Origin: an uncultured Ruminococcus sp.
GTDB taxonomy: Bacteria > Bacillota > Clostridia > Oscillospirales > Acutalibacteraceae
Direction: 5' to 3'
DNA: 36,898 bases
Assembly (NCBI GenBank): GCA_902762615.1
Contig: CACWOX010000021.1
Coordinates: 1 to 36,898 of the forward strand
The notes under the pieces were generated by a model. The model did no database searches. It saw only the letters and a program-made list of their open reading frames with translations, and had not been told where the DNA came from. Shown here piece by piece: positions 1,112 through 24,327 of the stretch. Position numbers and translations under genes: made by a program. Numbering within the stretch: the first letter of the stretch is position 1; every line of letters starts with the position of its first letter.

Positions 1112-1140
1112 ATTTTAGCATAAACTAACTTGTTTGTAAA
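1112..1140 (-). promoter_or_regulatory. Sigma-A promoter with overlapping TTAG-N6-CTAA box
   Basis: Read on the minus strand: -35 TTTACA (1135-1140), a 17-base spacer, -10 TAAAAT (1112-1117). The motif TTAG-N6-CTAA occupies 1115-1128, covering the spacer end and the start of the -10, the usual place for a repressor. It serves the 144-1070 hydrolase. On the gene's strand it reads GTTAGTTTATGCTAAA and matches the site at 20900-20915 in 14 of 16 positions. Confidence 0.75.
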
Positions 1141-1186
1141 GAGAATAATTTGATTTTCATTTTCTATTGCAGTCAAAGTCAATTAC

Positions 1187-1233
1187 AAAACAATCCCAAC
1201 ACAAAAGTCTCTGTTTCGCATTGGGATTGTTTT
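1187..1233 (-). terminator. Rho-independent terminator of the ABC/ECF operon
   Basis: A perfect 13-base inverted repeat, AAAACAATCCCAA (1187-1199) and its complement (1221-1233), lies 28 bases after the stop of the double ATPase. On the minus strand it ends in TTTT. It separates the operon from the hydrolase promoter. Confidence 0.85.
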
Positions 1234-1260
1234 GCGGATTTTCTAATGAAGATTATATCT

Positions 1261-2673
1261 TCACAAAGATATTGACCGCCCACAACAGGCATGAATCAGC
1301 TCGCTGTCGTGCGTCACAACAAGTATGGTTGTGCCCATGTCACGGAGTTTCTGCAATAACGCCGACGTTTCTTGCATATGTGCATAATCAAGTCCGCTGG
1401 TGGGTTCGTCAAGGAGCAAAATCTTCCGCCCTGACGCAAGCGCACAGGCGATAGCAAGACGCTGCTTTTGTCCCCCTGATAAACTTTGCGGGTGACGGTC
1501 AGTATAATCGGATAAATCAAGACTTTGTAGGAGTTCCAGTGCTTTTTCCTTTTCGTGAACGGTATTCTTTGGTAGGCTGATCAATACTTCGTCTAATACG
1601 CTTTCGGTAAACAACTGATTGCCCGTATCCTGCATGACCATGAAACAGAGTTTCCTTCTCGCTTTTCTGCCGTAATTTTTCCCCTTGTATTGGAGCTTTC
1701 CCTTACAGTGCTTCTCCAGTCCGCACAGGCAATTTAGCAGGCTGGTTTTTCCCGCGCCGTTTGCGCCGACAATCGCCGTAATCTCACCCTCTGCCAATTG
1801 CAGCAGCGGAATGTTCACAATAGGTTGTTTTTTGCCGCGATAGGAAAACCGGAATTTTTTGAGTGTGATCGGCGTGTCTTCTTTACGGAATGTGTCCTTT
1901 TGGATGTCCGATGGAGATTCTGTCATGGTTGTACGCAGTCCCATGGAATAAAGCTCATCCGGTGTAAGACCGTCCTTCTCACTTCCGACCAGTTCACGGA
2001 CAATCCGTCCGTCCCTCATGATCACCGCACGGTCGATGATGTCCCAGAGATATGCAATTCGATGCTCAGCCGCGATGATGGTTTTTCCTGCTGCTTTCCA
2101 TTGCACTATCATCTCTCGGAGTAACAAGGTCGCGTCATAGTCCAGATTCGCGGACGGCTCATCCAGCAGGATAATGTCCGGGTCGGATACATCGACGGAA
2201 GCGCAGGCGATCTTTTGCTTTTCTCCGTCCGAAAGATGAAAAATACTGCGATCCATGAGTTTTTCCATGTGGAAATGTGCAACCGTCTTGTCGATTCGTG
2301 TATAGATTTCTTTCTCAGAAAGGCCACGATTCTCGCATCCAAACGCCAATTCGCCTGTGGTATCAACATTGTAGAATTGCGTTCTGGGATTTTGAAATAC
2401 GGTTCCTACCTTCAGGGCAGTATCATAAAGCTCTTTGTCCTTTGTTTCCTCGCCGTCAATCAAAATATCGCCGATGACTTCTCCCGGGTAAAACTGAGGA
2501 ATCAACCCGTTGATCAGCCGCAGGATCGTTGTCTTGCCGCAGCCCGAAGGCCCGGTCAGCAAGACGAATTCGCCCGTTTTCACAGACAGACTGACGTCTC
2601 GCAGACAGTTCTCATTGTCCACCTGCGTTTCCTCGTTTCCATAGCGAAAGCTGACATTTTTCAGTTCTACCAT
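1261..2673 (-). CDS. ECF transporter double ATPase (two fused ABC domains), module 1
   Basis: A 470-residue protein with two complete ABC ATPase domains in tandem, the energising subunit of an energy-coupling-factor importer. Domain 1 has Walker A GPSGCGKT (41-48), an LSDGE signature (147-151) and Walker B IILLDE (167-172). Domain 2 has Walker A GANGAGKT, signature LSGGQ and LLLDEPTSGLD. The domain-1 signature carries Asp instead of the usual Gly, as in the copy at 21948-23414. The longer open frame begins at 2688, but ATG 2673 overlaps the EcfT stop and aligns with the start of the second copy, so I chose it. It is the last gene of the operon, translationally coupled to EcfT. Confidence 0.9.
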   Translation of the reverse strand: MVELKNVSFRYGNEETQVDNENCLRDVSLSVKTGEFVLLTGPSGCGKTTILRLINGLIPQFYPGEVIGDILIDGEETKDKELYDTALKVGTVFQNPRTQFYNVDTTGELAFGCENRGLSEKEIYTRIDKTVAHFHMEKLMDRSIFHLSDGEKQKIACASVDVSDPDIILLDEPSANLDYDATLLLREMIVQWKAAGKTIIAAEHRIAYLWDIIDRAVIMRDGRIVRELVGSEKDGLTPDELYSMGLRTTMTESPSDIQKDTFRKEDTPITLKKFRFSYRGKKQPIVNIPLLQLAEGEITAIVGANGAGKTSLLNCLCGLEKHCKGKLQYKGKNYGRKARRKLCFMVMQDTGNQLFTESVLDEVLISLPKNTVHEKEKALELLQSLDLSDYTDRHPQSLSGGQKQRLAIACALASGRKILLLDEPTSGLDYAHMQETSALLQKLRDMGTTILVVTHDSELIHACCGRSISL

Positions 2674-3404
2674 AACGTCACCCCGCAAAGTTCAAGAATC
2701 CATATCGCAATTACCGCAAGGCAAAGAAACAGCAACAATCCATCCTGTACCCTGCATCCTATGCGACAAATATTGGTTCGCTTTACCGGCGCTCCCAAGC
2801 CACGGGTCAACGCAGACGCCGAAAGCTCCTCTCCGATGCGCACGCTTGATGTGATCATGGGAACCATCTGGTATTCCAGAACCTGTCCCGCTTTTGTGCC
2901 ACTAAGATAAATGCCGCGCATTCCCATGGCGCGTCTGATGGATTTCCATTCCGCGCCGATGGTAGGAAAGAGTCGGAACATCACGGACATAGGGATCGTA
3001 ATCGCCTGCGGCATATGAAGTCGCTCCATAGCGGATATGAATTCACTGACCGATGTAGTGCTGATCAGGTACTCACCCATGACAATCGTCACGACAAAGC
3101 GAGTCAAAATGCCTCCGCACAGCAGAGCAATATAATTCAGTGCGCCGGGCAGATACGGCATAATAAAAAGCAGCCCGTAGCCCACCGCAAGCATGACGAT
3201 TCCCCGTGCAAACCGCTTCCACTGCCGCTCGATGAGCAGCAGCAGAAACGGAAGCGCCGAAAGACCTGTTTTGACAGGCTTGAGCATATCGCCGCCAAGT
3301 CCGCCCATAACAAACAAGGCTAACACGAGAACCAGCGCGAGTTTTGTGCGTGGGTCAAGAAAACCGCGTCTTTTTTCCTGTGTTTTTTCAGATGAATACG
3401 CCAT
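2667..3404 (-). CDS. ECF transporter transmembrane subunit EcfT, module 1
   Basis: A 245-residue multi-pass membrane protein of the EcfT (CbiQ-like) family, which joins the ATPases to the substrate-binding S protein. The two arginine-containing coupling motifs typical of EcfT are visible as A-M-G-M-R-G (about 159-164) and A-L-T-R-G-L (198-203); they dock into the ATPase grooves. The start ATG overlaps the S-protein stop (TGATG) and has no clear ribosome site of its own, so it is probably coupled. The C-terminal half is closely matched by the truncated copy at 21583-21951. Confidence 0.85.
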   Translation of the reverse strand: MAYSSEKTQEKRRGFLDPRTKLALVLVLALFVMGGLGGDMLKPVKTGLSALPFLLLLIERQWKRFARGIVMLAVGYGLLFIMPYLPGALNYIALLCGGILTRFVVTIVMGEYLISTTSVSEFISAMERLHMPQAITIPMSVMFRLFPTIGAEWKSIRRAMGMRGIYLSGTKAGQVLEYQMVPMITSSVRIGEELSASALTRGLGAPVKRTNICRIGCRVQDGLLLFLCLAVIAIWILELCGVTLW

Positions 3405-3988
3405 CAGGCAAGACCGGCTTTCTCAAAATGCTTTTTCAACAGTGCTCTGCCAAGGAGTCCTCCCAGGATACCGCAAATGAAGCAGGCTGCCAGAAGAACC
3501 GGCGCCATCCACAACGGCATCAGCTTTTGCACCGCGTCAATATATGCCTGCCCGTAGTCCGCTCTCTGTGCAAAATATCCCTCGTAGTCCGTAAACAACG
3601 GCAGGTAGTTCCCAAAAATCCACATGCTGAATAATCCGTAGGACAGAACCGCCTTTTTGGCGCTTTTGTACTTTCCGCTTCCTACGCACAACTCGGCAAG
3701 TATTCCCGCAATGGCACAGGTAAGAAGCGGCCACGGTCCCATACCCGTGAGCAGCATCAGAATTCCCATAATCATCGCCGTAATAAAAATCATTCCGGGC
3801 TTTTTCACCTTGGTCAGGAACAGCATAAACGGGATACCGCCCACAATCGGTACAAGCACAGAGAGAAGCGGCAGGAAAATGGGTATCATTCCCAGCATCG
3901 CCACCGCGAACAGAATGACAAAGTAGATCGCGCCGTAGATTCCGATATTGATCAGGTCACGGCCTTTGAGTTTGTTTTCGTTTTTCAT
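3404..3988 (-). CDS. ECF S component of the Trep_Strep/MptD family, module 1
   Basis: A 194-residue, very hydrophobic protein with about six membrane helices and a basic C-terminal motif (L-L-K-K-H-F), the hallmark of the Trep_Strep family (TIGR02185/PF09605) of putative substrate-binding S proteins. Substrates of this family are mostly unknown. GGAGG lies six bases before ATG 3988. It sits between two ABC half-transporters upstream and EcfT plus the ATPase downstream, so the complete ECF importer is encoded here. The paralogue at 20989-21582 shares the layout and the ending K-K-H-F-x-K-A-G. Confidence 0.85.
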   Translation of the reverse strand: MKNENKLKGRDLINIGIYGAIYFVILFAVAMLGMIPIFLPLLSVLVPIVGGIPFMLFLTKVKKPGMIFITAMIMGILMLLTGMGPWPLLTCAIAGILAELCVGSGKYKSAKKAVLSYGLFSMWIFGNYLPLFTDYEGYFAQRADYGQAYIDAVQKLMPLWMAPVLLAACFICGILGGLLGRALLKKHFEKAGLA

Positions 3989-4007: not shown

Positions 4008-5747
4008 TTATTGTTTTATCTTCCAGCTTGCAGCCTCACGCCGCTGACCGATGAAGTCCTTGTAAATGCCGTCCTGCTCCATCAGGCTGGCGTGCGTTCC
4101 CTGCTGAACGATTCTGCCGCGGTCTACTACAAGAATCTGATCGGCGTGCTCCACCGTTTTAAGCCGATGGGCAATCATAATGACGGTCTTTTCCGCTGTC
4201 AATGCCTGAATGGCTTTCATCAGCTCGTTCTCATTTTCCGGGTCGACGTTCGCCGTTGCCTCATCAAGGAAGATGACAGGCGCGTCCTTCATCATGGCGC
4301 GGGCAATGGAAATTCTCTGTCTTTCGCCGCCTGACAGGCTTGCGCCGCCTTCGCCTACCACCGTGTCGTATCCATCGGGAAGCGCGGAAATAAAATCGTG
4401 ACAGCAGGCTTGTTTTGCGGCGGCAATCACATCTTCCATCGGCGCATTCGGCTGTCCGAAACGAATATTATTAGCTATCGTATCGTGGAACAGATAGACA
4501 CTCTGAAACACAAAGCTGAAATGGGACATCAGAGAATCCATATCATACTCCTTCACATTCCGACCTCCAAGTGAAACTGTGCCGCTCTCCACATCCCAGA
4601 ACCTTGCGAGCAGGTTGACCAGCGTCGTCTTTCCCCCGCCGGAGGGGCCGACAATGGCAGTAGTGGTCTTTTCGGGGATATGCAGTGAAATGCCGTCAAT
4701 CACGTTCCGTTTCTCATAGGAAAACGTGATATCCTGCGCGGCGATATCCTTTGTGTCAGGAGAAATGACCTCGCCGGAGATGTCCATCTGCGGTGTGTCC
4801 AGAATCTCCTGCGCCCGGTCTACGCTGACGTCCACCACACGAAGCAGCGCCGAATAGTTGCCGGCGGTCTCGAGGCTTGCATAGATGATGAAGGAAGAAA
4901 TCACCATCACGACAGCGGTCAGAGCGTCCATACTGCCGCCGCAATAAAAGGCGCAGGAGCACGCCACCATCGCCACGCCGGTGAGCTTGGCAATGTAGCT
5001 TTGCACCGTCATGCGCGGAATCAGCGTCATTTCCATATCCGTATTGATTTTGCTGTTGGCGGAAATGGCGTCGTTGAGTTCCCTGCTCTTTTTTCCTGTC
5101 AGATGATAGGCCTTCACTTCCGTCATGCCCTGCAGATACTCCAGCACCTTTTCCACAAGCTTTTCGTCAGCGCTGATCTTTGTTCCCGCCAGTTTTCCGG
5201 CAGCGGCCTGCAAACGGCTGTTGGCCAGAAGAAACAGCGCGAATCCTGCCAGCAGGACAAGGGCGATACGCCAGTCAAAGAAGAAAAGCATCACGATGAT
5301 AAGCGACGTCGTGAGCAGTCCTTCGCAGACAAGCATTACCACTCGGGTCGCTACATTTTCAAGGTTCTCCATCACGTTGGTCGTGACCGATGTGATCTGC
5401 CCAAGGCTGTTTGTATTGAAGTAGCCCATGGGAAGATAGCGCATATGTTCCGCTATTTCCACCCGCTTTCTGGCGCAGGTATCATAACCGCCCTCGGTTT
5501 GCAGCATGGTGGCCTTTGCTTTGATAAGTCCCGCGCCGATGATGCTGATCAGCATGATTCCCAGCGAAAGCAGGATATCCGTTGTTTCCACGTTTCCGCG
5601 CATCAGTGCGCGTATCATCGCCGCAATTGCGGGAATCTTCATGGCTTCAAACATCGCCTGAAACACGCTGAGCCAGACGGATGTCATGAACTTGCGTCTG
5701 TTTTCTTTCCCACAGAACGCAAAAAACTTTTTAATTACCTTAAGCAT
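4008..5747 (-). CDS. ABC half-transporter (exporter fold), second of pair
   Basis: A 579-residue protein with an N-terminal six-helix membrane domain (about 20-300) and a C-terminal ATPase: Walker A GPSGGGKT (367-374), Q-loop Gln at about 415, signature LSGGE (471-475), Walker B VIFLDE (491-496) and an A-H-R switch. It overlaps the upstream half-transporter by eight bases and presumably forms a heterodimer with it. The fold is that of exporters, but the family also holds the siderophore importers YbtPQ and IrtAB. The setting (ECF importer behind it, iron-box-like promoter) makes the importer reading plausible. GGAGGTG precedes ATG 5747. The direction of transport cannot be read from sequence. 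Confidence 0.85.
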   Translation of the reverse strand: MLKVIKKFFAFCGKENRRKFMTSVWLSVFQAMFEAMKIPAIAAMIRALMRGNVETTDILLSLGIMLISIIGAGLIKAKATMLQTEGGYDTCARKRVEIAEHMRYLPMGYFNTNSLGQITSVTTNVMENLENVATRVVMLVCEGLLTTSLIIVMLFFFDWRIALVLLAGFALFLLANSRLQAAAGKLAGTKISADEKLVEKVLEYLQGMTEVKAYHLTGKKSRELNDAISANSKINTDMEMTLIPRMTVQSYIAKLTGVAMVACSCAFYCGGSMDALTAVVMVISSFIIYASLETAGNYSALLRVVDVSVDRAQEILDTPQMDISGEVISPDTKDIAAQDITFSYEKRNVIDGISLHIPEKTTTAIVGPSGGGKTTLVNLLARFWDVESGTVSLGGRNVKEYDMDSLMSHFSFVFQSVYLFHDTIANNIRFGQPNAPMEDVIAAAKQACCHDFISALPDGYDTVVGEGGASLSGGERQRISIARAMMKDAPVIFLDEATANVDPENENELMKAIQALTAEKTVIMIAHRLKTVEHADQILVVDRGRIVQQGTHASLMEQDGIYKDFIGQRREAASWKIKQ

Positions 5748-7485
5748 GATCTTTCACCTCCATATGCGCGTTCCACATCGTTTCATACAGTCCGTGACGG
5801 GAAAGCAGCTCCTCGTGCGTTCCGCTGTCATCAATGGCGCCGTCTTTTATGACATAAATGCAGTCGGCTGACGTGACCGTCGAAAGCCGGTGCGCAATGA
5901 CAATCAATGTCTTTCCCTCTGTGAGTTTTGAGACGCTGCGCTGAATGACCGCTTCGTTCTCCGGGTCGGTGTAGGCTGTGGCTTCGTCCAGAATGACGAT
6001 CGGCGCGGCTTTCAGCATCGCTCTCGCGATAGAGATCCGCTGACGCTCTCCTCCTGACAGATGACTTCCGGAAGAGCCAACCAATGTATCATAGCCGTTT
6101 TCCAGACCCATGATGAATTCATGGCAGCCGCTCCGTCTTGCCGCTTCTTCCACTTCCGCATCCGTCGCGTCAGCCCGACCGAGACGGATGTTTTCTCTTA
6201 CCGTCATATTAAAGAGATAGTTATCCTGTGAGACAAAGGCAACCTTATCCGAATACGCCTCCTGCGGAATATGGCGGATATCCTCGCCGCCGAGAGAAAT
6301 ACTGCCGCTGCTGACATCCCAGAGCGAGGCAATCAGCCGGGCAATCGTGCTTTTGCCGCTGCCGGAGGGACCGACAAGCGCAACAAAGCTGCCTTCCGGA
6401 ATGTCCATGGAAATGCCGTGCAGGACTTCTTTGTCCTCATAGGAGAAACGGACGTCTGTCAGTTTCAGACTGTTCTTCTCCGGAGCGTTTCCGCTTTCCG
6501 GACGCACCATTTCAGGCGCGTTCAGAATATTCTGCACTTCCCCGAAAATGGTTCCCATGGTGCGGAAGTCATCGGAATAACTCATCAGCGTGATGAGCGG
6601 CGTGATAATGCCGACAGAAAGAATGATGACCGTCACAAGGTCCTGCGCCGCCAGCGTTCCGCCCTTTACCAGCAGCCCGCCAATGGGTAGAACCGATACC
6701 ATCGTCGACGGCATGATCACCATGGCAAATGTAAACGGCAGAATGCTGGAACGCATCCAGTCGATGTAGCTGTGTGCCGCTTCATAGGCGTCATGTACGA
6801 AACGGTCATAGGAGCTTTTCGTTTTGCCGAACACTTTGATGACCTGTATTCCGCCGATGTATTCCACCGCAGTATCGTTCAGCGCCTTTGTTGCCGTAAC
6901 CGTGCGCCGGTAAAACTTCGCGCTTCCCGCCATCATGAACACATAGCAGAACAACCCCAGCGGCACGGTCGCCAGTGACGCAAGACCCATGCGCCAATCA
7001 ATGGTAAAGATATACATCAGAATAATGACCGGAATCAGCAGATTCGCCGTAAACTCCGGCACGATATGCGCCAGCGTCGTTTCAATGCTGTCAATCCGCT
7101 CGATCAGCGTGTTTTTCAACGCGCCGGAGCTTTGCGCCAGCACCGCGCCGAGCGGCATTCTTGTCAGCTTTTCCGTGCAGCGTTTTCTGATTTCTCCAAG
7201 CACCGCGAATGTTGCCTTATGGCTGGCGGTCGTGCTCAGCGCATGAAACAGCACACGTCCCAGCCAGAATCCCGCGATAATCAGACAGCATATCAGATAA
7301 TAGGAAAGGTCTTTGTTGCCTTCCATCAATCCTCTCACGATGCCGACAACCACAAAGTATGGCGCAACGGAAAATGCCACGCCGACAATGGCGAAGAACA
7401 CGCTCATGACATATTGCCCCTTGTGTCCTCCCGTTTGCCCCAACGCCCACGCTATGGGAGAAGGGGACTTTTGCTTTGCTTTCAT
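5740..7485 (-). CDS. ABC half-transporter (exporter fold), first of pair
   Basis: A 581-residue protein: membrane domain over roughly the first 310 residues, then an ATPase with Walker A GPSGSGKS, signature LSGGE, Walker B IVILDEA and A-H-R switch histidine. AGGAGG lies seven bases before ATG 7485; the TTG six bases further up is less likely. It is the first gene of the ABC/ECF operon and partners the overlapping 4008-5747 gene. Upstream lie an 18-base palindrome and an iron-box-like motif, suggesting control by the neighbouring TetR protein and by iron. A multidrug exporter is the main alternative to a siderophore importer. Confidence 0.85.
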   Translation of the reverse strand: MKAKQKSPSPIAWALGQTGGHKGQYVMSVFFAIVGVAFSVAPYFVVVGIVRGLMEGNKDLSYYLICCLIIAGFWLGRVLFHALSTTASHKATFAVLGEIRKRCTEKLTRMPLGAVLAQSSGALKNTLIERIDSIETTLAHIVPEFTANLLIPVIILMYIFTIDWRMGLASLATVPLGLFCYVFMMAGSAKFYRRTVTATKALNDTAVEYIGGIQVIKVFGKTKSSYDRFVHDAYEAAHSYIDWMRSSILPFTFAMVIMPSTMVSVLPIGGLLVKGGTLAAQDLVTVIILSVGIITPLITLMSYSDDFRTMGTIFGEVQNILNAPEMVRPESGNAPEKNSLKLTDVRFSYEDKEVLHGISMDIPEGSFVALVGPSGSGKSTIARLIASLWDVSSGSISLGGEDIRHIPQEAYSDKVAFVSQDNYLFNMTVRENIRLGRADATDAEVEEAARRSGCHEFIMGLENGYDTLVGSSGSHLSGGERQRISIARAMLKAAPIVILDEATAYTDPENEAVIQRSVSKLTEGKTLIVIAHRLSTVTSADCIYVIKDGAIDDSGTHEELLSRHGLYETMWNAHMEVKDHA

Positions 7486-7503
7486 AAGCAAACCTCCTTA
7501 TGT

Positions 7504-7551
7504 TTTTGTTAGCTAACAAAAGTAAGTTAGTGTTAGCTAACCTTCATTCAA
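7504..7551 (-). promoter_or_regulatory. Promoter/operator region of the ABC/ECF operon
   Basis: A perfect 18-base palindrome TTTTGTTAGCTAACAAAA (7504-7521) lies just before the first ribosome site, and its 10-base core GTTAGCTAAC recurs at 7532-7541. On the minus strand a promoter TTGAAT (7546-7551), 16-base spacer, TAACTT (7524-7529) fits. TTAG-N6-CTAA (7527-7540) overlaps the -10 in the same register as at 1115 and 20901. The palindrome core is shared with the tetR promoter, so these are likely TetR operators plus an iron box. Confidence 0.75.
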
Positions 7552-8339: not shown

Positions 8340-9038
8340 TCAATTTCGATAGCTGCCTTTATCGCTCCTCCTGTTGATATGGATCAGACCCGAAAGCATA
8401 AAGAACATCCATCCGGCAGATTCCAATATGACGGAAATATTGTGTGTCAACGCGGACGGAATCAATTTCAGAATGACGTCCACGCCGAGCATGACAGCCG
8501 GACAGCAGACCAAACCCCATTTGCTCACCCGAAGCCTATTGGTTAAGACCAACCGCCACAACACGATGGAAATTCCAACATCCTCTATCAAGAAAAATGT
8601 TATGACCGGAATCACATACGGTTTTTGTACCTTTTCAATTAATCTCAAGGCGGTTTCCGAAGCGATTCCCAGCTCTGTGGTTGTCTGATACAGGATGGGA
8701 GGCAGACAGTCTATGGCGATCATATACAAAGAAGAGACTGCGTAACTGACCGTTGATACCAAGAACAGCAGTTTTACCCAGCGTTTTTCCCGCAAGGTCC
8801 GGATCATCTCATACCAGCCGGAGAAGGCGAAACACATTGCGGGAACACCCAGCATGGCAAGCATCATACAAATCTCATAGAGCCGGATCGGGCGAAGAAG
8901 CCAGGCGTCCGCGTCTTTCAGCATACCGAAGCCGTCCATCCAGTAGGAAAGCAGCATCATCAGTAATCCATCAAAGATGCCCACCAGGAGGCGAACGCCT
9001 ATCCTTTTATCTTTTTTACGTTTGCTCAAATTATCCAT
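8340..9038 (-). CDS. Multi-pass membrane protein, DUF6796-like
   Basis: A 232-residue protein with about seven hydrophobic segments after a basic N-terminus. Its order of helices, a central S-G-x ... M-I segment and a C-terminal K-x-I-P ... G-W-M-x-F pattern resemble the 222-residue protein at 18567-19235 and the broken gene at 29678-30215; I believe this is the DUF6796 type, without known function. It is the last gene of the eleven-gene operon, seven bases after the preceding hydrolase. The ribosome site is weak (GTGAAG). It pairs with an HSL-type hydrolase and a PGTE-type membrane protein, as its relative at 18567 does. Confidence 0.65.
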   Translation of the reverse strand: MDNLSKRKKDKRIGVRLLVGIFDGLLMMLLSYWMDGFGMLKDADAWLLRPIRLYEICMMLAMLGVPAMCFAFSGWYEMIRTLREKRWVKLLFLVSTVSYAVSSLYMIAIDCLPPILYQTTTELGIASETALRLIEKVQKPYVIPVITFFLIEDVGISIVLWRLVLTNRLRVSKWGLVCCPAVMLGVDVILKLIPSALTHNISVILESAGWMFFMLSGLIHINRRSDKGSYRN

Positions 9039-9045
9039 TTATTCT

Positions 9046-9969
9046 TCACATACCAAAAAATCGCTTGATATCGTCTATGATTTCCCGCTCACCATCCCTG
9101 CCTTCTTTTGTAAATGTGAAGACCAGCCACGCGTGAAACATTCCTTCCTTGATCTTGATCTGATAATCCTTCACGCCGCAGCGGATAAAGGATTTTTCGT
9201 AGTCCGGAGCGATCCCGGCGAATACCTCGTCTCCGGCAAAATACATGATGATTTTAGGGAAACCGGTGTAGTCGTCCTCGTCCGCCTTGCCGAGAATGTA
9301 CTGCGGCAGGTCGCCGTCAGGATTATAATATTTCACCATCGTGTCAAACATATTCCAATGCAGCAGCGGATCCCTTGGGTCGATTTCCTTCATGCGCTCT
9401 TTTGCTTCCTCGCTGATCAGCAGACCGGAAACGGACACCGGCATCATCAGCCCCGGCATGGGCAGCTCCGGGTATTTCTGCACCATGTGCCGCCCTGCCT
9501 GCATCAGTACGTCCGCACCGCCGGAGAAGCCAAGCCAGACGATTTTTTCCGGCGGAAAACGTCCCAGCATCTTTTCATGAACCCGGATGGTGAATTCTGT
9601 TTCGTCCATCAGGTCATAGTCAGGCAGCAGCGGATAGAGGGGAATCCACAGCTCCGCGCCGGTCTGGGCAATATAGTGTTTGATGGAGCTTTTGAAAGGA
9701 AGCTGCCAGCGGCGGGAACCTCCGCCGGGGAAATAAACCACGGCTTTGTCCGGATGACTGCCCGCTTTCTTTCCGACGATGATATGGAATCCGTCCAGTT
9801 GTTCATCGCGGAATTCAAAACCCCTGATTTTGGGAAGCGCGAACCTGAACTTCCTCTGAATGTCGTAGGACGCCTGTTTGAATTCCTCGTAGCTCTCTTC
9901 CTGATGAAGCGAACTGCCCTTGACAACCTTTCTGACGATAGGCTTTAAGATGCTGTATAACAAACTCAT
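9046..9969 (-). CDS. Alpha/beta hydrolase, hormone-sensitive-lipase-like (copy 1)
   Basis: A 307-residue soluble hydrolase. The oxyanion motif appears as F-P-G-G-G (80-84, HGGG-like), the nucleophile elbow as G-F-S-G-G (147-151, Ser149), an acid in A-G-D-E-V (about 247) and the histidine in M-F-H-A-W (279). That is the layout of the HSL/esterase group, which cleaves small esters. GGAGGTG stands before ATG 9969. It is second-last in the eleven-gene operon, flanked by two small membrane proteins; the same trio recurs at 18567-20764. The substrate is unknown; given the iron-box promoter, an ester bond in a chelator is one option, a membrane lipid another. Confidence 0.75.
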   Translation of the reverse strand: MSLLYSILKPIVRKVVKGSSLHQEESYEEFKQASYDIQRKFRFALPKIRGFEFRDEQLDGFHIIVGKKAGSHPDKAVVYFPGGGSRRWQLPFKSSIKHYIAQTGAELWIPLYPLLPDYDLMDETEFTIRVHEKMLGRFPPEKIVWLGFSGGADVLMQAGRHMVQKYPELPMPGLMMPVSVSGLLISEEAKERMKEIDPRDPLLHWNMFDTMVKYYNPDGDLPQYILGKADEDDYTGFPKIIMYFAGDEVFAGIAPDYEKSFIRCGVKDYQIKIKEGMFHAWLVFTFTKEGRDGEREIIDDIKRFFGM

Positions 9970-9985
9970 GTCAACACCTCCGAAT

Positions 9986-10495
9986 TCACATCAGTGCAGT
10001 AAAGATCCACGCGGTGATCAAACTGCCGACAACGATCATGACGCATTGCCTGGTCTGCTGTTTGCGGTTATATCCGAAGTCCTGCCAGCCGGCACAGCCC
10101 TCCGTTTCCGGAAAGTAATGCTGGAAGAAGTGTGTCTTCGTCAGCAGAAAATAGTCCAACGCGCCGATGTCAAACGCCTTGATGACAGCCCCTATGATGA
10201 AGAAGCGCAGGAAGAACGCCCAGAATGTATAGCCGTTTCGCAGTCCGTCCAACCCGCCAATCACAAACAGACCGAGATATCCCGCGCAAAACAGGATCAG
10301 AATGACCCAGCCGAGAAAGCGACGGAGAGACATGGGCTGTTTTTCCCATTCTTGCAACCTTGGACGCAGGCATTCCTGTACATCCTCGGGGAAATTCTTC
10401 GCCAGCAGTTTGGTGGGCATCGTGACCGTCACACCCCATATTCCCAAAAACAATAAGGCGCATCCGGTCAGAGACAGCAGCATTGTCAGCCCCAT
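9986..10495 (-). CDS. Small membrane protein of the D-x4-D ... P-x-T-E family (member 1)
   Basis: A 169-residue protein with four predicted membrane helices and no named family that I can assign. Between helices three and four lies A-F-D-I-G-A-L-D followed, 15 residues on, by P-E-T-E. The same D-x4-D spacing and a P-x-T-E-like motif recur in four other proteins of this window (10514, 14091, 14590, 19339). It is closest to 14590-15087, sharing D-Y-F-L-L and F-F-Q-H-Y-F-P-E. AGGAG lies about 12 bases before ATG 10495. The conserved acidic pairs could bind a metal or be catalytic; that is inference. Confidence 0.65.
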   Translation of the reverse strand: MGLTMLLSLTGCALLFLGIWGVTVTMPTKLLAKNFPEDVQECLRPRLQEWEKQPMSLRRFLGWVILILFCAGYLGLFVIGGLDGLRNGYTFWAFFLRFFIIGAVIKAFDIGALDYFLLTKTHFFQHYFPETEGCAGWQDFGYNRKQQTRQCVMIVVGSLITAWIFTALM

Positions 10496-10513
10496 TTCTT
10501 TGCACTTCTCCTT

Positions 10514-11020: not shown

Positions 11021-11024
11021 AACA

Positions 11025-14576: not shown

Positions 14577-14589
14577 TTGCTCACCCCTT

Positions 14590-15087: not shown

Positions 15088-15124
15088 AATTTGTCACTCC
15101 TTTTTCTTTGAAATTTTATCATTA

Positions 15125-15874: not shown

Positions 15875-15966
15875 AAGTAACCACTCCCATTTTCGTGTTA
15901 GTCGCAGATAACTCATAGCTCAAAAATAAACCGCTCATACGGTCTGCAATCTGTATTTCCATACGG

Positions 15967-16013
15967 TTATCTTCAACTAACTTAATTGTACATTAATGAC
16001 ATCTATTTGTCAA
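15967..16013 (-). promoter_or_regulatory. Promoter and iron-box-like site of the eleven-gene operon
   Basis: Minus strand: -35 TTGACA (16008-16013), 17-base spacer, -10 TACAAT (15985-15990). Four bases after the -10 comes TTAG-N6-ATAA (15967-15980), one mismatch from TTAG-N6-CTAA, placed over the transcription start. No other strong promoter was seen between the genes down to 8340. Confidence 0.75.
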
Positions 16014-16715: not shown

Positions 16716-16740
16716 GTATACACACTCCTCTGTTTTTGAA

Positions 16741-16774
16741 TTAGATTAAACTAACTTTATCATTTTATCATCAA
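16741..16774 (-). promoter_or_regulatory. Promoter with exact TTAG-N6-CTAA box
   Basis: An exact TTAG-N6-CTAA (16741-16754; GTTAGTTTAATCTAAT on the minus strand) overlaps a -10 TTTAAT (16745-16750) with -35 TTGATG (16769-16774) at 18 bases. It would drive the small ORF and the membrane protein at 16067-16513. Confidence 0.6.
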
Positions 16775-16869: not shown

Positions 16870-16907
16870 CAGGTTAGACAAAGCAAACTGCAAGTGAGGT
16901 TTCGGGA

Positions 16908-17498
16908 ATGGCGGAGCAAGACAGCGGCACCAAGGAGCGGCTTTTACAATCAGGCAAAGAAGAATTTTGGCAGCACGGTTTTCAAAATGCCTCATTGCGC
17001 CGGATTTGTGCAAATGCAGGTGTGACCACGGGTGCATTGTATTTCTTTTTCAGAAACAAAGAGGATTTGTTCGGGAGTATTGTCGGGAAACCGCTCGCTG
17101 CGTATCACGAATTGATCGAGCGTTCTGCCAAAAAAGAAATCGAGGATGTATCCAGCGCCACCGGGAACGAAGAAAATTTAATGCGCCTTTTGATGACCTA
17201 CCGCGAAGAATTTATTTTGCTCCTGGAGAAATCAGCAGACACAAAATACGAAAATTGTTTGACGGAGTATAAGGCTAACCTTGAAAAAGTGACGGCTGCT
17301 TTTTTTGAAAAATACGCGCCCGGCCAGGCAAACGGACGATTGATTCAACTGATCGTCAGTATGCGTGTGCAGGGCTATCTGGAAATCATACACGGAAATG
17401 ACACGCTGGAGGAGGCGATGAAATTGGCAAAATATATGTCCTGTTACGCAGAAGCAGGATTTTCGGAACTGATCAGACAAATCAATCAGGAGTGTTGA
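16908..17498 (+). CDS. TetR/AcrR-family repressor 2
   Basis: A 196-residue regulator with an N-terminal TetR helix-turn-helix (A-S-L-R-R-I-C ... A-L-Y-F-F-F ... K-E-D-L-F, about 28-58) and an all-helical C-terminal domain. It is only distantly like the TetR at 7631-8239 outside the DNA-binding region. Its promoter carries a 6-4-6 palindrome, and a near-copy stands before the next gene, an alpha/beta hydrolase, so hydrolase and repressor probably respond to the same small molecule. Start ATG 16908; ribosome site weak (GTGAGG). Confidence 0.9.
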   Translation: MAEQDSGTKERLLQSGKEEFWQHGFQNASLRRICANAGVTTGALYFFFRNKEDLFGSIVGKPLAAYHELIERSAKKEIEDVSSATGNEENLMRLLMTYREEFILLLEKSADTKYENCLTEYKANLEKVTAAFFEKYAPGQANGRLIQLIVSMRVQGYLEIIHGNDTLEEAMKLAKYMSCYAEAGFSELIRQINQEC

Positions 17499-17584: not shown

Positions 17585-18475
17585 ATGAAAGAACGATACA
17601 CCGTCACGACAGACGGTTTTTGCGGCAGATGGTTTGAGGGAACGACACACAAAGATAAGGTTGTCATCGTCATGCCGGGAACGGGTACAGCGGAGGAAAA
17701 TGCCGTCAAACTCTTTGGCTTCATCCACAAGGCCGGTTATTCCGTCATGATGATCGCCAATTCCAAGTGGGACAAAGAGCTGCCGAGCGACCCGATACAG
17801 GTACCTGTGGAATATGCTGAAAAAGCCATCGCCGTCCTGAAAGAAGAAGGCTACACCCGTTTCGCCATGTACGGCATTTCGTTCGGCGCACGGTATTCTC
17901 TGCTCTGCGCCACACTGATTCCCGATATTGAGGTAGTTATGGCCGCTTCGCCCTACGATTATGTTACGGAAGGCGTTAAGGGAATCACGAATCCGCAGAA
18001 CTGCTCGTCGCTGACTTACCGCGGGCAAGACCTTCCCTACCTTCCCGTGGAACTTTTGCACCACAATCTTTTGGCGGGCGTTTGCAAGCTGCTCAAATCC
18101 AGATACACCTTTAAGCAAATCATGCGGTTCGGTTACGACAGCTGCAAGGAAACCGAAGAAGCCAGAATCAGGGTAGAAAATATCACCGCGGATATTCTGC
18201 TGCTCTCCCCGGGCTATGATGACTGCTGGCCGTCCGACACCGCCGTTCCGAGAATGGAAAGGCTGATAAGGGAGAGCGGGAAATGCAAGCGTTTCAAGTC
18301 GGTGGTGTATGAAAAAGCCAGCCATATTATCGGCCTTGACCTGGACGCGACACCCGACCGCAAGAAGAAAATGCAGTCCATGCTGCAAGCCGAAATGAAC
18401 AATCCGCAGGCCTGCGACGAAGCCCGCCGCGAAGGAATGAAGGAAATCATCGACTTCCTTGACGCTTGGGAATAA
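17585..18475 (+). CDS. Alpha/beta hydrolase, BAAT-like, TetR2-linked
   Basis: A 296-residue soluble hydrolase related to the one at 144-1070: nucleophile elbow G-I-S-F-G (97-101, Ser99), acid loop G-Y-D-D (210-213), histidine in K-A-S-H (247), and a shared L-P-Y-L-P segment in the lid region. AGGAG stands ten bases before ATG 17585. Terminators on both sides make it a single-gene unit; the TetR2 operator in front implies induction by a ligand. Thioesterase or esterase activity is the family expectation; the substrate is unknown. Confidence 0.75.
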   Translation: MKERYTVTTDGFCGRWFEGTTHKDKVVIVMPGTGTAEENAVKLFGFIHKAGYSVMMIANSKWDKELPSDPIQVPVEYAEKAIAVLKEEGYTRFAMYGISFGARYSLLCATLIPDIEVVMAASPYDYVTEGVKGITNPQNCSSLTYRGQDLPYLPVELLHHNLLAGVCKLLKSRYTFKQIMRFGYDSCKETEEARIRVENITADILLLSPGYDDCWPSDTAVPRMERLIRESGKCKRFKSVVYEKASHIIGLDLDATPDRKKKMQSMLQAEMNNPQACDEARREGMKEIIDFLDAWE

Positions 18476-19849: not shown

Positions 19850-20764
19850 CTACTGTAACGCCTTAAAATATTCATGACGCACCGCCTTGGCCTCCGGCAC
19901 AAATTCCATCGCGCCCCAGCAGTGCATCATGCCTTCCCCGATATGCGTTGTCAGTGAAACACCGTACTTTTTACAAACAGTCTGCATATCTTTCAGGTAA
20001 GCCATCATCACTTCATGTGTTCCGTAAAAGATGTCCATTGGCGGAAAGTCTGTCAAATCAAACAAAATCGGACTTAACAGATACGCTTCTTCGCTGTTCA
20101 CCAGCACAGGCGCGATATTGTCGAAGAAACGCGGCGGAATCATCACGTCAAGATTCTTTCGCTTTTCCATTTCTTTTTTCTGTTTCTCGCTCGGCGGTAC
20201 TTGCAATCCCGGAGATTGCAACACTAATTTTGCGGGCAACGGAGCAGGGAGATTTTCATGCCTGATATACATACACAACGAAAGCGCCTGACCGCCGCCG
20301 GAAGACGTTCCGAAAAATCTGACATTCTCTGCGCTGTATTTTTGCAAAATTGCCTCATAAACACGGTACGTACTTTGCAGGGTTTCTACCAGCCTGTGTT
20401 CGGGTGCCATCGGATAGAGGGGAAACCAAACCTCCGCTCCCGAATTTTCCGCTATCTGTCCGCATAAAATCAAATCTCCGGGGTCAGGCGGCAGTATGTA
20501 ACCGCCGCCGAAAAGATACAGCACGGCCTTTTCTGGAACTTTTCCCTTTTCTCGCACAATATAACAGATTGTTCCTTCAATGCTCCTTGTTTCCACATCA
20601 AACTTTGGGTTCAGCTTTTTGTAGGGTACCTTGAGCGGCTTCTTTTGCTCGGCTTTATACTTTTCAAGCAATTTATCAAAATCCGTGCCTTGTTTGTCAA
20701 GCATTTGATTGACTCCTAGTGTCTTGAAAAAACTTTCAACGATTCTATATCTGATACTGGTCAT
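19850..20764 (-). CDS. Alpha/beta hydrolase, hormone-sensitive-lipase-like (copy 2)
   Basis: A 304-residue relative of the hydrolase at 9046-9969: oxyanion motif L-F-G-G-G (84-88), elbow G-T-S-S-G (152-156, Ser154), P-L-Y-P downstream of the oxyanion strand, an acidic loop G-T-H-E-V and the histidine in M-M-H-C-W. The catalytic acid appears to be Glu or a nearby residue rather than a clear Asp. AGGAG precedes ATG 20764. It is first gene of a two- or three-gene unit with the membrane proteins at 19339 and 18567, behind a promoter carrying a near iron box. Confidence 0.75.
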   Translation of the reverse strand: MTSIRYRIVESFFKTLGVNQMLDKQGTDFDKLLEKYKAEQKKPLKVPYKKLNPKFDVETRSIEGTICYIVREKGKVPEKAVLYLFGGGYILPPDPGDLILCGQIAENSGAEVWFPLYPMAPEHRLVETLQSTYRVYEAILQKYSAENVRFFGTSSGGGQALSLCMYIRHENLPAPLPAKLVLQSPGLQVPPSEKQKKEMEKRKNLDVMIPPRFFDNIAPVLVNSEEAYLLSPILFDLTDFPPMDIFYGTHEVMMAYLKDMQTVCKKYGVSLTTHIGEGMMHCWGAMEFVPEAKAVRHEYFKALQ

Positions 20765-20786
20765 AATGAACTCCTATGAATTGCGG

Positions 20787-20831
20787 TTAGTCTTATATAA
20801 CTATCATATCATGTTCCTTTTTAAAAATCAA
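20787..20831 (-). promoter_or_regulatory. Promoter and near iron box of hydrolase copy 2
   Basis: Minus strand: TTGATT (20826-20831), 17-base spacer, TATGAT (20803-20808), then TTAT-N6-CTAA (20787-20800), one base off TTAG-N6-CTAA. The box begins two bases after the -10, similar to the placement at 15967-15980. Confidence 0.7.
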
Positions 20832-20888: not shown

Positions 20889-20917
20889 TAGACATACAAG
20901 TTAGCTTATGCTAACAT
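20889..20917 (+). promoter_or_regulatory. Promoter and iron-box palindrome of ECF module 2
   Basis: TAGACA (20889-20894), 17-base spacer, TAACAT (20912-20917). The perfect inverted repeat GTTAGC-TTAT-GCTAAC (20900-20915) overlaps spacer and -10 with the -10 starting at the T of CTAA, the same register as at 1112-1128 and 7524-7540. Confidence 0.75.
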
Positions 20918-20988: not shown

Positions 20989-21582
20989 ATGTCCAATCAA
21001 CCAACTCAAAACCGCATCGGCGGTAAAGATCTCATCAATGTCGGTATTTTCACCGCCATCATCTTCATCATCACGATGGTCGTCATGCCTCTCGGATTTA
21101 TTCCGGTACTCATGCCGCTGTACTGTGTCATCATTCCATTGGTCGCCGGTATCCCGTGGATGCTGTTTGTTTCCAAAGTGCGTCATTTCGGTCTGATACT
21201 CATTATGAGCCTGCTGCTCGGCATTTGCCTGATGCTCACGGGCATGGGCTGGTATGCCATGCCTGTCTGCCTTGTATCCGGACTGATTTCTGAGCTGATC
21301 GTAAAAAAGGGAGACTACAAGAGCGCAAAGCTGGACGTCATCGCTCACGGATTTTTCTGCATCTGGCTGTTCGGCAGCTACATTCCGCTGATCTTCATGG
21401 CGGACGAATATTGGACGACCAACGCGGATTACGGCGAGGAATTCATTACCACGGCTAAAAATCTCTTCCAACTCTGGATGGCGCCTGTTCTGATTGTCTG
21501 CTGCGTTGTATTCGGCCTCATCGGCGGCTGGCTGGGCTTGAAAATCATGAAAAAGCACTTTGTAAAGGCGGGTATCGTATAA
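20989..21582 (+). CDS. ECF S component of the Trep_Strep/MptD family, module 2
   Basis: A 197-residue membrane protein with about six helices, parallel to 3404-3988: G-x-D-L-I-N-V-G near the start, L-T-G-M-G in the middle, L-W-M-A-P-V late and the basic ending M-K-K-H-F-V-K-A-G. GGAGG lies seven bases before ATG 20989, which I prefer to the upstream in-frame start at 20950. It heads a plus-strand operon whose EcfT is truncated, so it may depend on the EcfT of module 1. Confidence 0.85.
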   Translation: MSNQPTQNRIGGKDLINVGIFTAIIFIITMVVMPLGFIPVLMPLYCVIIPLVAGIPWMLFVSKVRHFGLILIMSLLLGICLMLTGMGWYAMPVCLVSGLISELIVKKGDYKSAKLDVIAHGFFCIWLFGSYIPLIFMADEYWTTNADYGEEFITTAKNLFQLWMAPVLIVCCVVFGLIGGWLGLKIMKKHFVKAGIV

Positions 21583-21951
21583 TGCTGTCGGGAGCTTCCG
21601 CTGTCGGTCATGTTCCGCTTTTTCCCGACAGTGGGAGAGGAAGTAAAGGCTGTCAACAATGCCATGCATATGCGCGGCATTAAGCTGGGAGGAAGCAATG
21701 CCTCCAAAATGATCGAGTACCGCTTGGTGCCGATTATGATGTGTTCCCTGCGCATTGGTGACGAGCTTTCCGCCGCAGCCCTTACCAGAGGACTGGATGC
21801 ACCGGTCAAACGCACGAATATATACAAAATCGGTTTCCGCTTGCAGGATGCAGTAATTTTCATGCTGTGCCTGGCCGCTTATGCCATTTGGATTCTCGGG
21901 TTGTTCGGCATTCACGCGAAGGAATGGTACGGAGGAGTAATGGGATTATGA
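21583..21951 (+). pseudogene. EcfT of module 2, N-terminal half deleted
   Basis: Directly after the S-protein stop, in the same frame, comes a stretch aligning with residues from about 137 to the end of the EcfT at 2667-3404 (S-V-M-F-R-x-F-P-T, M-R-G-I, A-L-T-R-G-L, A-P-V-K-R-T-N-I). Roughly the first 135 residues, including the first membrane helices, are missing. The first ATG (21610) lies inside a conserved motif, so it is not a natural start. The two ATPase-coupling motifs survive. I read it as a deletion that fused the S-gene end to the EcfT middle. Confidence 0.85.
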
Positions 21952-23414
21952 TTGAATTAAAGAATGTCAGTTTTCGCTATGCTTCCGAAAGCCAGAAAAT
22001 GCTGGAGGAAGAACAAGCTCCCACGGAAAACGTCGGCGGCAGACTGTGCGACATCAATCTCACGATTGCCGACGGCTCTTTTGTATTGCTGACAGGACCT
22101 TCCGGTTGCGGCAAGACCACCATACTCCGCCTGCTCAACGGATTGATTCCCCATTACTATGCCGGTGAGATTTCCGGCGAGATTCTGGTGAACGAAAAAA
22201 ATGTGAGCGAGAGAGAACTGTACGAAACCGCCTGCTCGACGGGAACGGTCTTTCAGAACCCGCGCTCGCAGTTTTTTAATGTGGATACCACCAGCGAGCT
22301 TGCCTTTACCTGTGAAAACAGGGGCATGGACGCAAATGAAATCAGGCGGAGAATGGATGAAACAGTCCATTCCTTCGGGCTTCAGAAGCTGATGGATCGC
22401 AGCATTTTTCAGCTCTCCGACGGCCAAAAGCAAAAAATCGCCTGTGCCTCCATTGATGTGGGGCGTCCGGACATCATTCTACTCGACGAGCCTTCCGCCA
22501 ATCTGGATTACGGAACGACCATGCAGCTCCGGGAATTGATTGGCATCTGGAAAGCACAGGGCAAAACCATTGTCGCCGCCGAGCACAGAATCTTCTATCT
22601 GTGGGATCTGATCGACCGGGCAGTCATTCTGCGGGACGGAAGCATCATCAAGGACTTGACGCGCAAGGAATTGTCGGAGCTTTCCGATGAGGACATTACC
22701 CATCTGGGTCTGCGAACAGTCCATTCCGAAGCACCGTCGGATATTTCGCTTCCAGCCTTCACACAGGAAGATGTTCCCATCACGCTTCAAAAATTCAAAT
22801 TTGCCTATCGCAGAGGTATGTTTGAACGCCGCCGAAAAAAGGGATACATTGTCAATATCAGACAGCTTAATATAGCACAAAGCAGAATTACGGCGATTAC
22901 GGGGTATAACGGCGTAGGAAAGACCACGCTGCTTCACTGCCTCTGCGGTCTGGAAAAGAAATGCAAGGGTAAAATCCGATACAAAGGTAAGAATTACAAC
23001 CGCCGCAAGCGGCATAATCTACTCTTTATGGTGATGCAGGACGTCAACCATCAGCTTTTCACGGAGAGTGCATTGGAAGAAGTGGTGATAAGTCTCCCAA
23101 AAGGCAGTGAAGAGGAGCGGCAGAAAAAGGCGATGCAAATTCTTTCCAAACTGGATTTGGCAGAATTCGCGCAGCGTCACCCGATGTCGCTCTCGGGCGG
23201 TCAGAAGCAGCGTCTGGCGGTGGCCTGTGCCATTGCGTCAGGGCGTGAAATCCTGTTGTTTGACGAGCCGACCAGCGGTCTGGATTACCTTCACATGCAA
23301 CAGACCGCCGATTTGCTGCGGGAACTGAAAGAAATGGGAAAGACAGTCATTGTCGTAACGCACGACAGCGAATTGATACGAAGCTGCTGCGACAGAAAGC
23401 TGGTGATTGAGTGA
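21948..23414 (+). CDS. ECF transporter double ATPase, module 2
   Basis: A 488-residue tandem ATPase, paralogous to 1261-2673. Domain 1 has GPSGCGKT, signature LSDGQ and IILLDEPSANLDY; domain 2 has Walker A GYNGVGKT, signature LSGGQ and LLFDEPTSGLDY. It carries a longer linker before domain-2 strand one (basic R-R-G-M-F-E-R-R-R-K-K). ATG 21948 overlaps the EcfT-remnant stop (ATGA) with GGAGG 12-17 bases upstream. The open frame to 21867 lies inside EcfT and is not used here. The frame is intact, so the ATPase could still serve module 1. Confidence 0.9.
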   Translation: MIELKNVSFRYASESQKMLEEEQAPTENVGGRLCDINLTIADGSFVLLTGPSGCGKTTILRLLNGLIPHYYAGEISGEILVNEKNVSERELYETACSTGTVFQNPRSQFFNVDTTSELAFTCENRGMDANEIRRRMDETVHSFGLQKLMDRSIFQLSDGQKQKIACASIDVGRPDIILLDEPSANLDYGTTMQLRELIGIWKAQGKTIVAAEHRIFYLWDLIDRAVILRDGSIIKDLTRKELSELSDEDITHLGLRTVHSEAPSDISLPAFTQEDVPITLQKFKFAYRRGMFERRRKKGYIVNIRQLNIAQSRITAITGYNGVGKTTLLHCLCGLEKKCKGKIRYKGKNYNRRKRHNLLFMVMQDVNHQLFTESALEEVVISLPKGSEEERQKKAMQILSKLDLAEFAQRHPMSLSGGQKQRLAVACAIASGREILLFDEPTSGLDYLHMQQTADLLRELKEMGKTVIVVTHDSELIRSCCDRKLVIE

Positions 23415-23676: not shown

Positions 23677-23750
23677 TTTTTATGATTTGAGGAATATTTC
23701 CGTCAGGAATTTTCCATATATTTTTCATCTTATGAAATGAGGTATTTGTT

Positions 23751-24173
23751 ATGAGCAAAATAGCGGTAGTATATTGGAGCGGTACAGGAAATACCGAAGC
23801 AATGGCCAATCTGGTTGCGGACGGCGCAAAAGCAGCCGGCGCAGAAGTTTCGGTCGTTGCCGTCTCGGATTTCAGCGCATCTCAGATGGACGCATTTGAC
23901 GCGGTGGCATTCGGCTGCCCCTCCATGGGCGCGGAGCAACTGGAGGATAGCGAGTTTGAGCCGGTATTCATCGAATGCGAGGCGAAGCTCAGCGGTAAGA
24001 AACTGGGACTCTTTGGTTCCTACGGTTGGGGAGACGGCGAGTGGATGCGCACATGGGAAGAAACCTGCAGAAATGACGGTGCTGTTCTCGTGGCAGACGG
24101 CGTGATCTGCAACGGCGCTCCCGACAGCGAAGCGGAAGAAGCATGCAAGGCACTCGGCGCGGCACTTGCCTAA
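23751..24173 (+). CDS. Flavodoxin
   Basis: A 140-residue short-chain flavodoxin: the FMN phosphate loop S-G-T-G-N-T-E (10-16) follows the first strand, and the second FMN loop shows as G-S-Y-G-W-G-D-G (about 88-95) with the flanking Trp/Tyr that stack on the flavin. It carries electrons in place of ferredoxin and is typically raised under iron shortage, which suits the neighbourhood, although no iron box was found directly before it. GAGG stands before ATG 23751. A hairpin follows its stop. Confidence 0.9.
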   Translation: MSKIAVVYWSGTGNTEAMANLVADGAKAAGAEVSVVAVSDFSASQMDAFDAVAFGCPSMGAEQLEDSEFEPVFIECEAKLSGKKLGLFGSYGWGDGEWMRTWEETCRNDGAVLVADGVICNGAPDSEAEEACKALGAALA

Positions 24174-24198
24174 ATTTTTTTCAAGCAAATAACAACTT

Positions 24199-24239
24199 AT
24201 CCTGTGAACTTTCTCGGTAGGAGGATTCACAGGATTTTG
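24199..24239 (+). terminator. Hairpin terminator after flavodoxin
   Basis: Ten-base perfect arms ATCCTGTGAA (24199-24208) and TTCACAGGAT (24226-24235) are followed by TTT. The T-run is short, so strength is uncertain. Confidence 0.6.
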
Positions 24240-24313
24240 CTGCAAGGCAAGCATGGTGATTTCGGATTGGCTCGGAATGGTCAAGATGATTCACCTTTCG
24301 CTTTGACATAAAG

Positions 24314-24327
24314 TTAGTTAATTCTAA
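24314..24327 (+). promoter_or_regulatory. Iron-box-like site before feoA
   Basis: An exact TTAG-N6-CTAA lies just before AGGAGG (24330-24335) of feoA. TTGACA at 24303-24308 looks like a -35, but its matching -10 would place the start inside the ribosome site, so the real promoter is probably further up and the box lies in the leader or over the start point. Confidence 0.7.

Follow-up and report, generated by a model that had tools for sequence, protein, structure and literature searches.

The closest described counterpart of the system reported here is EqbA, which belongs to the equibactin locus of ICESe2 in Streptococcus equi. In the accessible part of its description, EqbA is without an SH3 domain and carries Cys104 and Asn13, an Asn at the latter position being likened to TroR; it shifts DNA in gels with Fe(II) and Zn(II), and incompletely with Mn(II), and its palindrome is centred on GTTAG-ATGTAT-CTAAC (PMC3672683). 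For IdeR, the accessible part of a second account shows that a half site is bound by a single dimer (PMC8464063). Here we describe a set of TTAG-N6-CTAA boxes in 36,898 nucleotides of DNA from an uncultured Ruminococcus sp. (assembly GCA_902762615.1, contig CACWOX010000021.1); "the window" denotes this whole stretch. Our sequence-based analysis supports an iron-regulon reading. We propose that each box is the operator of an iron-dependent, EqbA-like repressor of the DtxR superfamily, for which a protein designated P0001 is the candidate, and that this repressor governs an iron island including hydrolase, methyltransferase and energy-coupling factor (ECF) transporter genes. We place the probability of this reading at roughly 0.87.

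The likeness to EqbA is both structural and genetic. The operator core, GTTAG-N6-CTAAC, is the same; both proteins are DtxR-like without SH3; a Cys and an Asn occupy two metal-site positions that lie 91 residues apart in each; and YbtPQ-like ATP-binding cassette (ABC) genes and an alpha/beta hydrolase are linked to both. The arrangement differs, however. EqbA is tied to the promoter of one siderophore nonribosomal peptide synthetase (NRPS) operon on a mobile element, whereas here a regulon of many units is seen, the genome yielded no NRPS condensation domain, and the regulator gene lies on another contig than the island. DtxR and IdeR of Actinobacteria, with their 19-bp iron box, share with P0001 the N-terminal and dimerisation domains and the primary-site Cys, Glu and His, but P0001 has no SH3 domain and carries Asn, not Met, at position 10. 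MntR of B. subtilis and E. coli shares the two-domain build, the best sequence scores and six alignable ligand positions; in contrast, Asp8 is replaced by Asn and Glu99 by Cys in P0001, and the targets here are mostly iron genes. In other Firmicutes, feo, flavodoxin, and siderophore and heme uptake belong to the Fur regulon. That target list recurs here, but no iron-type Fur was found in this genome.

Results

Box enrichment and spacing

The TTAG-N6-CTAA observation is confirmed. An initial annotation of the window had listed exact copies at 1115-1128, 7527-7540, 16741-16754, 20901-20914 and 24314-24327; all five are present at these places, and a sixth, at 31340-31353, had been missed. The computed expectation is 0.21 copies, in agreement with the annotation's estimate of less than one by chance, and none of 100 dinucleotide shuffles reached six. 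Within the window, the six copies of TTAG-Nn-CTAA at n = 6 compare with a single one at the ten other spacings from n = 2 to 12 pooled (hand count). Across the 2.99-Mb genome there are 14 exact copies, six of them inside the window, and the counts for n = 2 to 12 (5, 6, 8, 1, 14, 3, 2, 3, 2, 1, 5) peak at n = 6. We take spacing as the fairer control because the reversed pattern is commoner than the motif genome-wide (41 versus 14 for eight bases; 68 versus 25 for ten bases with at most one mismatch), presumably owing to the rarity of TAG and CTA words, and is thus unsuitable as an estimate of chance.

One-mismatch copies of the eight-base core mean little by themselves. With the six exact copies counted, the window holds 14 matches with at most one mismatch; shuffled sequences average 8.0, and 14 is reached in 8 of 100. 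Because this is near chance level, we rejected such counts as evidence and relied instead on a ten-base motif, GTTAG-N6-CTAAC, and a matrix. With at most one mismatch the motif occurs at 25 places in the genome, 10 of which lie in the 1.2% of the genome that the window represents (binomial P 2e-13, assuming even placement). It adds boxes 15898, 16874 and 31340 (named by the first position of the core) to the seven noted initially. The matrix derives from 87 sites that lie close to regulator genes of other, named genomes; it requires the core by construction, so that its independent evidence is confined to the flanks. In a scan of the window the seven initial sites rank first to seventh, with scores of 23.0 to 14.4, and boxes 31340, 16874 and 15898 score 13.9, 12.6 and 11.3. 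The maxima of 12 Markov-simulated windows ran from 5.0 to 12.0, a range that includes the score of box 15898. The two one-mismatch copies claimed initially, at 15967-15980 and 20787-20800, are present and, while near chance as cores alone, are supported by the ten-base motif and the outside matrix.

Nine of the ten boxes overlap no listed gene in a window of which listed genes cover 88%. Equal frequency inside coding regions, which the initial annotation had named as a point that would count against a regulon, is therefore not seen here. It had also stated that all copies lie in gene starts; of the ten boxes, 15898 overlaps the first codons of the listed hydrolase-operon start at 15916, and 31340 marks no gene but the promoter of a short transcript-like element.

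Promoter geometry

As judged by matching to the −35/−10 consensus, boxes with a promoter lie either in the −35/−10 spacer or just after the −10. In both positions a bound protein would block transcription. The −10 starts in CTAA at boxes 1115 and 20901; box 24314 has the same layout but a poor −10. Three cases of this kind had been noted initially. Boxes 15967, 16741, 16874 and 20787 follow a −10, where two such cases had been noted. For boxes 7527 and 15898, consensus matching found no good promoter. A further GTTAGCTAAC lies at 7508-7517, 24 bp from box 7527. Behind box 16741, the frame 16400-16716(−) is short with an early stop, a truncated gene or a leader, and the membrane gene 16067-16513(−) follows it.

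The element at box 31340 (31140-31400, − strand; L230-L235) spans ~200 nt, has a −35/−10 promoter and forms a pair of strong hairpins (fold z −3.2). Six copies occur in three of nine genomes searched, two each in G000, G060 and G062, and the box is intact in two of the six. Rfam gave no match to the window at the gathering threshold. The element is possibly a small RNA family.

The candidate regulator

A DtxR-family gene, for which the initial annotation had suggested looking, is present once among the genes found in this genome. Its product, P0001, is encoded on contig C1 and not on the contig of the island. The 126-residue protein matches PF01325 and PF02742, its sole matches over cut-offs, with no SH3 or other third domain. 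Aligned to B. subtilis MntR, it shows Asn9, Glu12, His78, Cys100, Glu103 and His104 opposite the MntR ligands Asp8, Glu11, His77, Glu99, Glu102 and His103. All ten aligned sequences, P0001 among them, keep Cys100, and nine keep Asn9. The best solved relatives are MntR proteins, and the closest named regulator among the matches listed, at 86% identity, comes from uncultured Ruminococcus sp. RUG14461.

These features align P0001 with the EqbA type: two domains without SH3, the residues Cys and Asn at DtxR positions 102 and 10, respectively, and an operator near iron-gene promoters. Canonical DtxR/IdeR was rejected as a class since there is neither an SH3-like domain nor a 19-bp two-dimer box; the boxes agree with the 19-bp DtxR consensus at no more than 15 of 19 positions, and the spacer positions carry little information. 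The MntR class was likewise rejected, the Asp8 and Glu99 ligands being Asn9 and Cys100 in P0001. Because TTAG-N6-CTAA corresponds to the half site bound by one IdeR dimer, the box would be a single-dimer unit. The DtxR/IdeR-type iron regulon proposed initially is supported, with iron as the probable metal, and is revised from a three-domain regulator with a 19-bp box to a two-domain, EqbA-like one with a single-dimer unit. One Fur-family gene was found in the genome, and it is probably Zur, since znuA and an ABC ATPase gene stand behind it; an iron-type Fur may have been overlooked because the genome is 95.9% complete.

Boxes elsewhere in the genome and in relatives

Eight exact boxes lie outside the window. 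Absence from feo genes elsewhere had been named initially as a further point that would count against the reading, but the second feoAB of this genome has three upstream boxes, 32 bp apart. Two boxes precede a DUF2325-DUF3793-flavodoxin set, and one (C20:16857) lies upstream of an ABC ATPase gene resembling that at 26442 in the window; this box shares its spacer with box 24314, and each adjoins a flavodoxin gene. Another box overlaps the −35 of mntP (L001:1501, L173:1501), with the same spacer at mntP in relative G060, and yet another stands ~300 bp upstream of a 2Fe-2S gene of NuoE type. mntP encodes a manganese exporter, an odd target for an iron-type repressor. Among the 25 ten-base places, we judged four by eye to be chance: L218, L219 and L224, which lie within coding DNA or adjoin it, and L217, which sits where a called frame ends. 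A one-mismatch box (G000:C28:21786; L225:1487) lies ~290 bp before an ABC-transporter-looking gene, and the place at C53:17024 falls between genes.

We also examined 80 named loci, the best 80 of at least 573 confirmed P0001-like genes. Here the N6 spacing gave 87 matches, whereas no other spacing between 0 and 15 exceeded 8; for GTTAG-N6-CTAAC there were 59, with no more than 2 at the others. A box was present in 36 of the 80 loci and the reversed control in 8. All 20 loci with feoB in the examined flanks have a box; in the cultured commensal Anaeromassilibacillus sp. An172 (L150), feoB and boxes accompany the regulator gene. In 28 of the 80 a box lies no more than 600 bp upstream of the regulator, compared with 4, 3, 2 and otherwise 0 loci for ten other spacings; a separation of 25 or 26 bp is frequent among tandem boxes. 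Across 60 family genomes, a P0001 match was found in 53 and the ten-base box in 52, at 228 places versus 112 for the reversed control. Boxes in relatives lie at feo, DUF2325/DUF3793, ABC/FtsX pairs, YbtPQ-like genes and HMA-domain proteins, and at an Shp/NEAT heme-binding protein with FecCD; one in G047 lies at a methyltransferase 65% identical to that at 11804-12610 in the window. Fetched loci from other genomes hold 231 distinct box places, 18 of them within long frames; most of these loci were retrieved through a box or a regulator, which makes the sample a biased one. Three relatives have a box near an HMA-domain P-type ATPase gene (L192:3431 and L205:2914 by Pfam; L202:3696 by BLAST to the window HMA protein).

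The Anaerococcus prevotii plasmid pAPRE01 (L256:5992-12348, typed conjugative) encodes a P0001 relative of 39% identity. This gene is followed by thioesterase, phosphopantetheinyl transferase, AMP-binding and NRPS genes, the first of which has a box, GTTAGCCAATACTAAC, ~26 bp before it. The cluster resembles the arrangement at eqb. Two distant relatives on viral contigs have no boxes.

Genes of the window

The features are collected in the table. As noted initially, one box copy precedes feoAB. The operon headed by box 7527 comprises two ABC half-transporters and an ECF system; among the matches listed for the half-transporters, eukaryotic double-length ABC chains score highest. The same-strand run behind boxes 15967 and 15898, which would form a single operon, contains hydrolases, two methyltransferases, an ATC_hydrolase and small membrane-protein-like genes. 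Homologues of the ABC ATPase/FtsX pair have boxes of their own at C20:16857 and in relatives G024, G036 and G063.

Table. Boxes and genes of the window
Feature	Position	Strand	Sequence	Remarks
Box 1	1114..1129		TTTAGCATAAACTAAC	In −35/−10 spacer, −10 starts in CTAA; upstream of hydrolase 144-1070(−)
Box 2	7526..7541		GTTAGTGTTAGCTAAC	Heads ABC/ECF operon
Box 3	15897..15912		GTTAGTCGCAGATAAC	New relative to initial annotation; lowest matrix score of the ten
Box 4	15966..15981		GTTATCTTCAACTAAC	Just after TTGACA-N17-TACAAT promoter, − strand
Box 5	16740..16755		ATTAGATTAAACTAAC	Just after −10 for − strand; before frame at 16716 and gene 16067-16513(−)
Box 6	16873..16888		GTTAGACAAAGCAAAC	New relative to initial annotation; directly after TTGACA-N17-TATACT; 20 bp before TetR gene
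Box 7	20786..20801		GTTAGTCTTATATAAC	After −10 of hydrolase operon starting 20764(−)
Box 8	20900..20915		GTTAGCTTATGCTAAC	In −35/−10 spacer, −10 starts in CTAA; upstream of second ECF system
Box 9	24313..24328		GTTAGTTAATTCTAAT	Core end 14 bp before feoA; spacer position, good −35, poor −10
Box 10	31339..31354		GTTAGGAGCCACTAAT	Uncertain; promoter spacer of repeated two-hairpin element, − strand
Alpha/beta hydrolase (BAAT_C)	144..1070	−		Pfam PF08840; predicted regulon member
ECF double ATPase	1261..2688	−		
ECF T component (CbiQ family)	2667..3404	−		
ECF transporter S component (Trep_Strep/MptD)	3404..3988	−		
Second ABC half-transporter	4008..5747	−		YbtP, MsbA and IrtA score alike among the matches listed
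ABC half-transporter	5740..7491	−		Best bacterial chains among the matches listed: YbtP, IrtA
Same-strand gene run, hydrolase at 15916 down to DUF6796	8340..15916	−		Behind boxes 15967/15898
TetR-family regulator	16908..17498	+		PF00440
BAAT_C hydrolase behind TetR gene	17585..18475	+		
Alpha/beta hydrolase (Abhydrolase_3)	19850..20764	−		Behind box 20787
Second ECF S component (Trep_Strep/MptD)	20989..21582	+		Box 20901 heads this second ECF system
Second ECF double ATPase	21867..23414	+		
Flavodoxin	23751..24173	+		PF00258; precedes box 24314 and feoAB
feoA	24342..24563	+		PF04023
feoB	24560..26425	+		PF02421/PF07664
ABC ATPase + FtsX-type permease	26442..29375	+		

The ATC_hydrolase-family protein (13348-14067, − strand), of the L-2-amino-thiazoline-4-carboxylate hydrolase family, is encoded in the iron-linked run behind boxes 15967 and 15898. 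Since siderophores of the yersiniabactin type contain thiazoline rings, a role of the protein in chelate processing is conceivable. The search for an NRPS condensation domain, which was positive in 4 of 14 control genomes, found none in this genome; the transporters may therefore serve iron carriers made by others. Further observations concern the flanking genes. An HMA protein (29393-29641) comes after the FtsX gene, and a DUF6796 match at 29760-30080, which spans part of the family profile only, is probably a gene remnant; two more DUF6796 genes, both longer, occupy 8340-9038 and 18567-19235. The region 31529-36754 holds a PglZ-domain gene and an Eco57I-type methylase gene, a pair of the kind seen in BREX-like defence loci. 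G062 has a PglZ protein 96% identical to this one, and there too the two-hairpin element lies next to it.

Discussion

Our reading provides a simple account of how the island could respond to iron. P0001 would be a two-domain, EqbA-like sensor of cellular Fe(II). With enough iron in the cell, its metal-loaded dimer would occupy the −35/−10 spacer or cover the transcription start and block the polymerase; when iron runs short, the repressor would leave and the units would be expressed. The derepressed set would include feoAB for ferrous uptake, flavodoxin, the two ECF systems, the YbtPQ-like ABC pair, and the hydrolase and methyltransferase genes, and the products of the last two groups may process imported iron chelates.

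Several results weigh against this proposal. The 80 loci were picked by their regulator, and the closeness of regulator and box there comes from a biased sample; 44 of the 80 have no box in the examined flanks, some of which are short. Among the 60 family genomes the ten-base box accompanies 49 of 53 P0001 matches and 3 of 7 genomes without a match (Fisher P 0.004), a comparison confounded by the fact that, of the seven, four are less than 90% complete and three are small (1.0 to 1.4 Mb). Nor is the pairing clean: G010, G014 and G026 have the box without a P0001 match, and G011, G038, G044 and G059 the match without the ten-base box. G047, which is 99% complete, has six boxes, including those at feoB and a periplasmic binding protein gene, and a DtxR match of only 30% identity. 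In the genome studied here, no box lies within 1.5 kb of the P0001 gene, and two box targets, mntP and the NuoE-type gene, are not classic iron uptake genes. Finally, of five annotated secondary replicons examined (15 were listed among 215 records), all with a P0001 relative, four have no box near the gene, and in three of the five relatives Asn is replaced by Asp (three of six aligned sequences, the other three having Asn).

Could the metal be manganese rather than iron? If the boxes were operators of a manganese-sensing, MntR-like protein, the regulon would respond to manganese. The solved structures closest to P0001 are indeed MntR proteins, the box over the mntP −35 recurs with the same spacer in G060, and the part of PMC3672683 available likens an Asn where P0001 has Asn9 to TroR. 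However, the position of MntR Glu99 is Cys in P0001 and in every sequence aligned with it, and the boxes mark feoAB, flavodoxin, and heme and siderophore-type uptake. No manganese importer gene was noticed at any box, though no search dedicated to that family was made. We consider manganese control unlikely.

The box might instead be read by another regulator, either the TetR protein at 16908 or some other palindrome-binding factor, with P0001 merely travelling alongside feo. The TetR gene does have a box of its own, a TetR-like gene stands before the YbtPQ-like pair in G063, and G047 has boxes without a close P0001 relative. Against this, the box is present in every one of the 20 named loci in which feoB lies near the regulator, and it is the core of the EqbA operator and fits the one-dimer half of the IdeR site; a different reader is thus very unlikely. 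That the enrichment reflects chance or copied promoters with no regulon is hardly credible: the spacer common to 24314 and C20:16857 beside a flavodoxin gene each, the near-chance number of one-mismatch cores and the 31340 box intact in two of six element copies point that way, but the other spacers and flanks differ, the binomial P for the window is 2e-13, and the N6 peak is sharp both here and in the 80 outside loci. Such an origin may hold for boxes 31340 and 15898, and is refuted for the strong boxes.

An EqbA-type regulon is known in kind; what is new is the width of the regulon in gut Clostridia and the inclusion of non-classical genes. In the open-licence literature, judged by title and the start of the abstract, we found no account of such a regulon in gut Clostridia. 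Papers using the word EqbA are, by title, streptococcal or unrelated, and in the accessible part of PMC12574912 DtxR appears in the reference list only. A broader proposal, on which we are evenly divided, is that EqbA-type single-dimer repressors serve as general iron regulators, in Fur's place, in many gut Clostridia (Ruminococcus-like, Oscillospiraceae and Lachnospiraceae). The island of the window would then import and process the chelates of neighbours through ECF and YbtPQ-like transport, hydrolases and methyltransferases, and mobile branches of the same clostridial system would be represented by the eqb element of Streptococcus and the plasmid of Anaerococcus.

Little seems to have been written on how anaerobic gut Clostridia control iron. 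With a ten-base operator that can be read directly from DNA, the regulon can be computed for many uncultured genomes; the operator also gives hydrolases, methyltransferases and membrane proteins that have had no name a testable role in iron supply. Overall, many of the unexplained genes in this stretch are probably switched on when iron is scarce.

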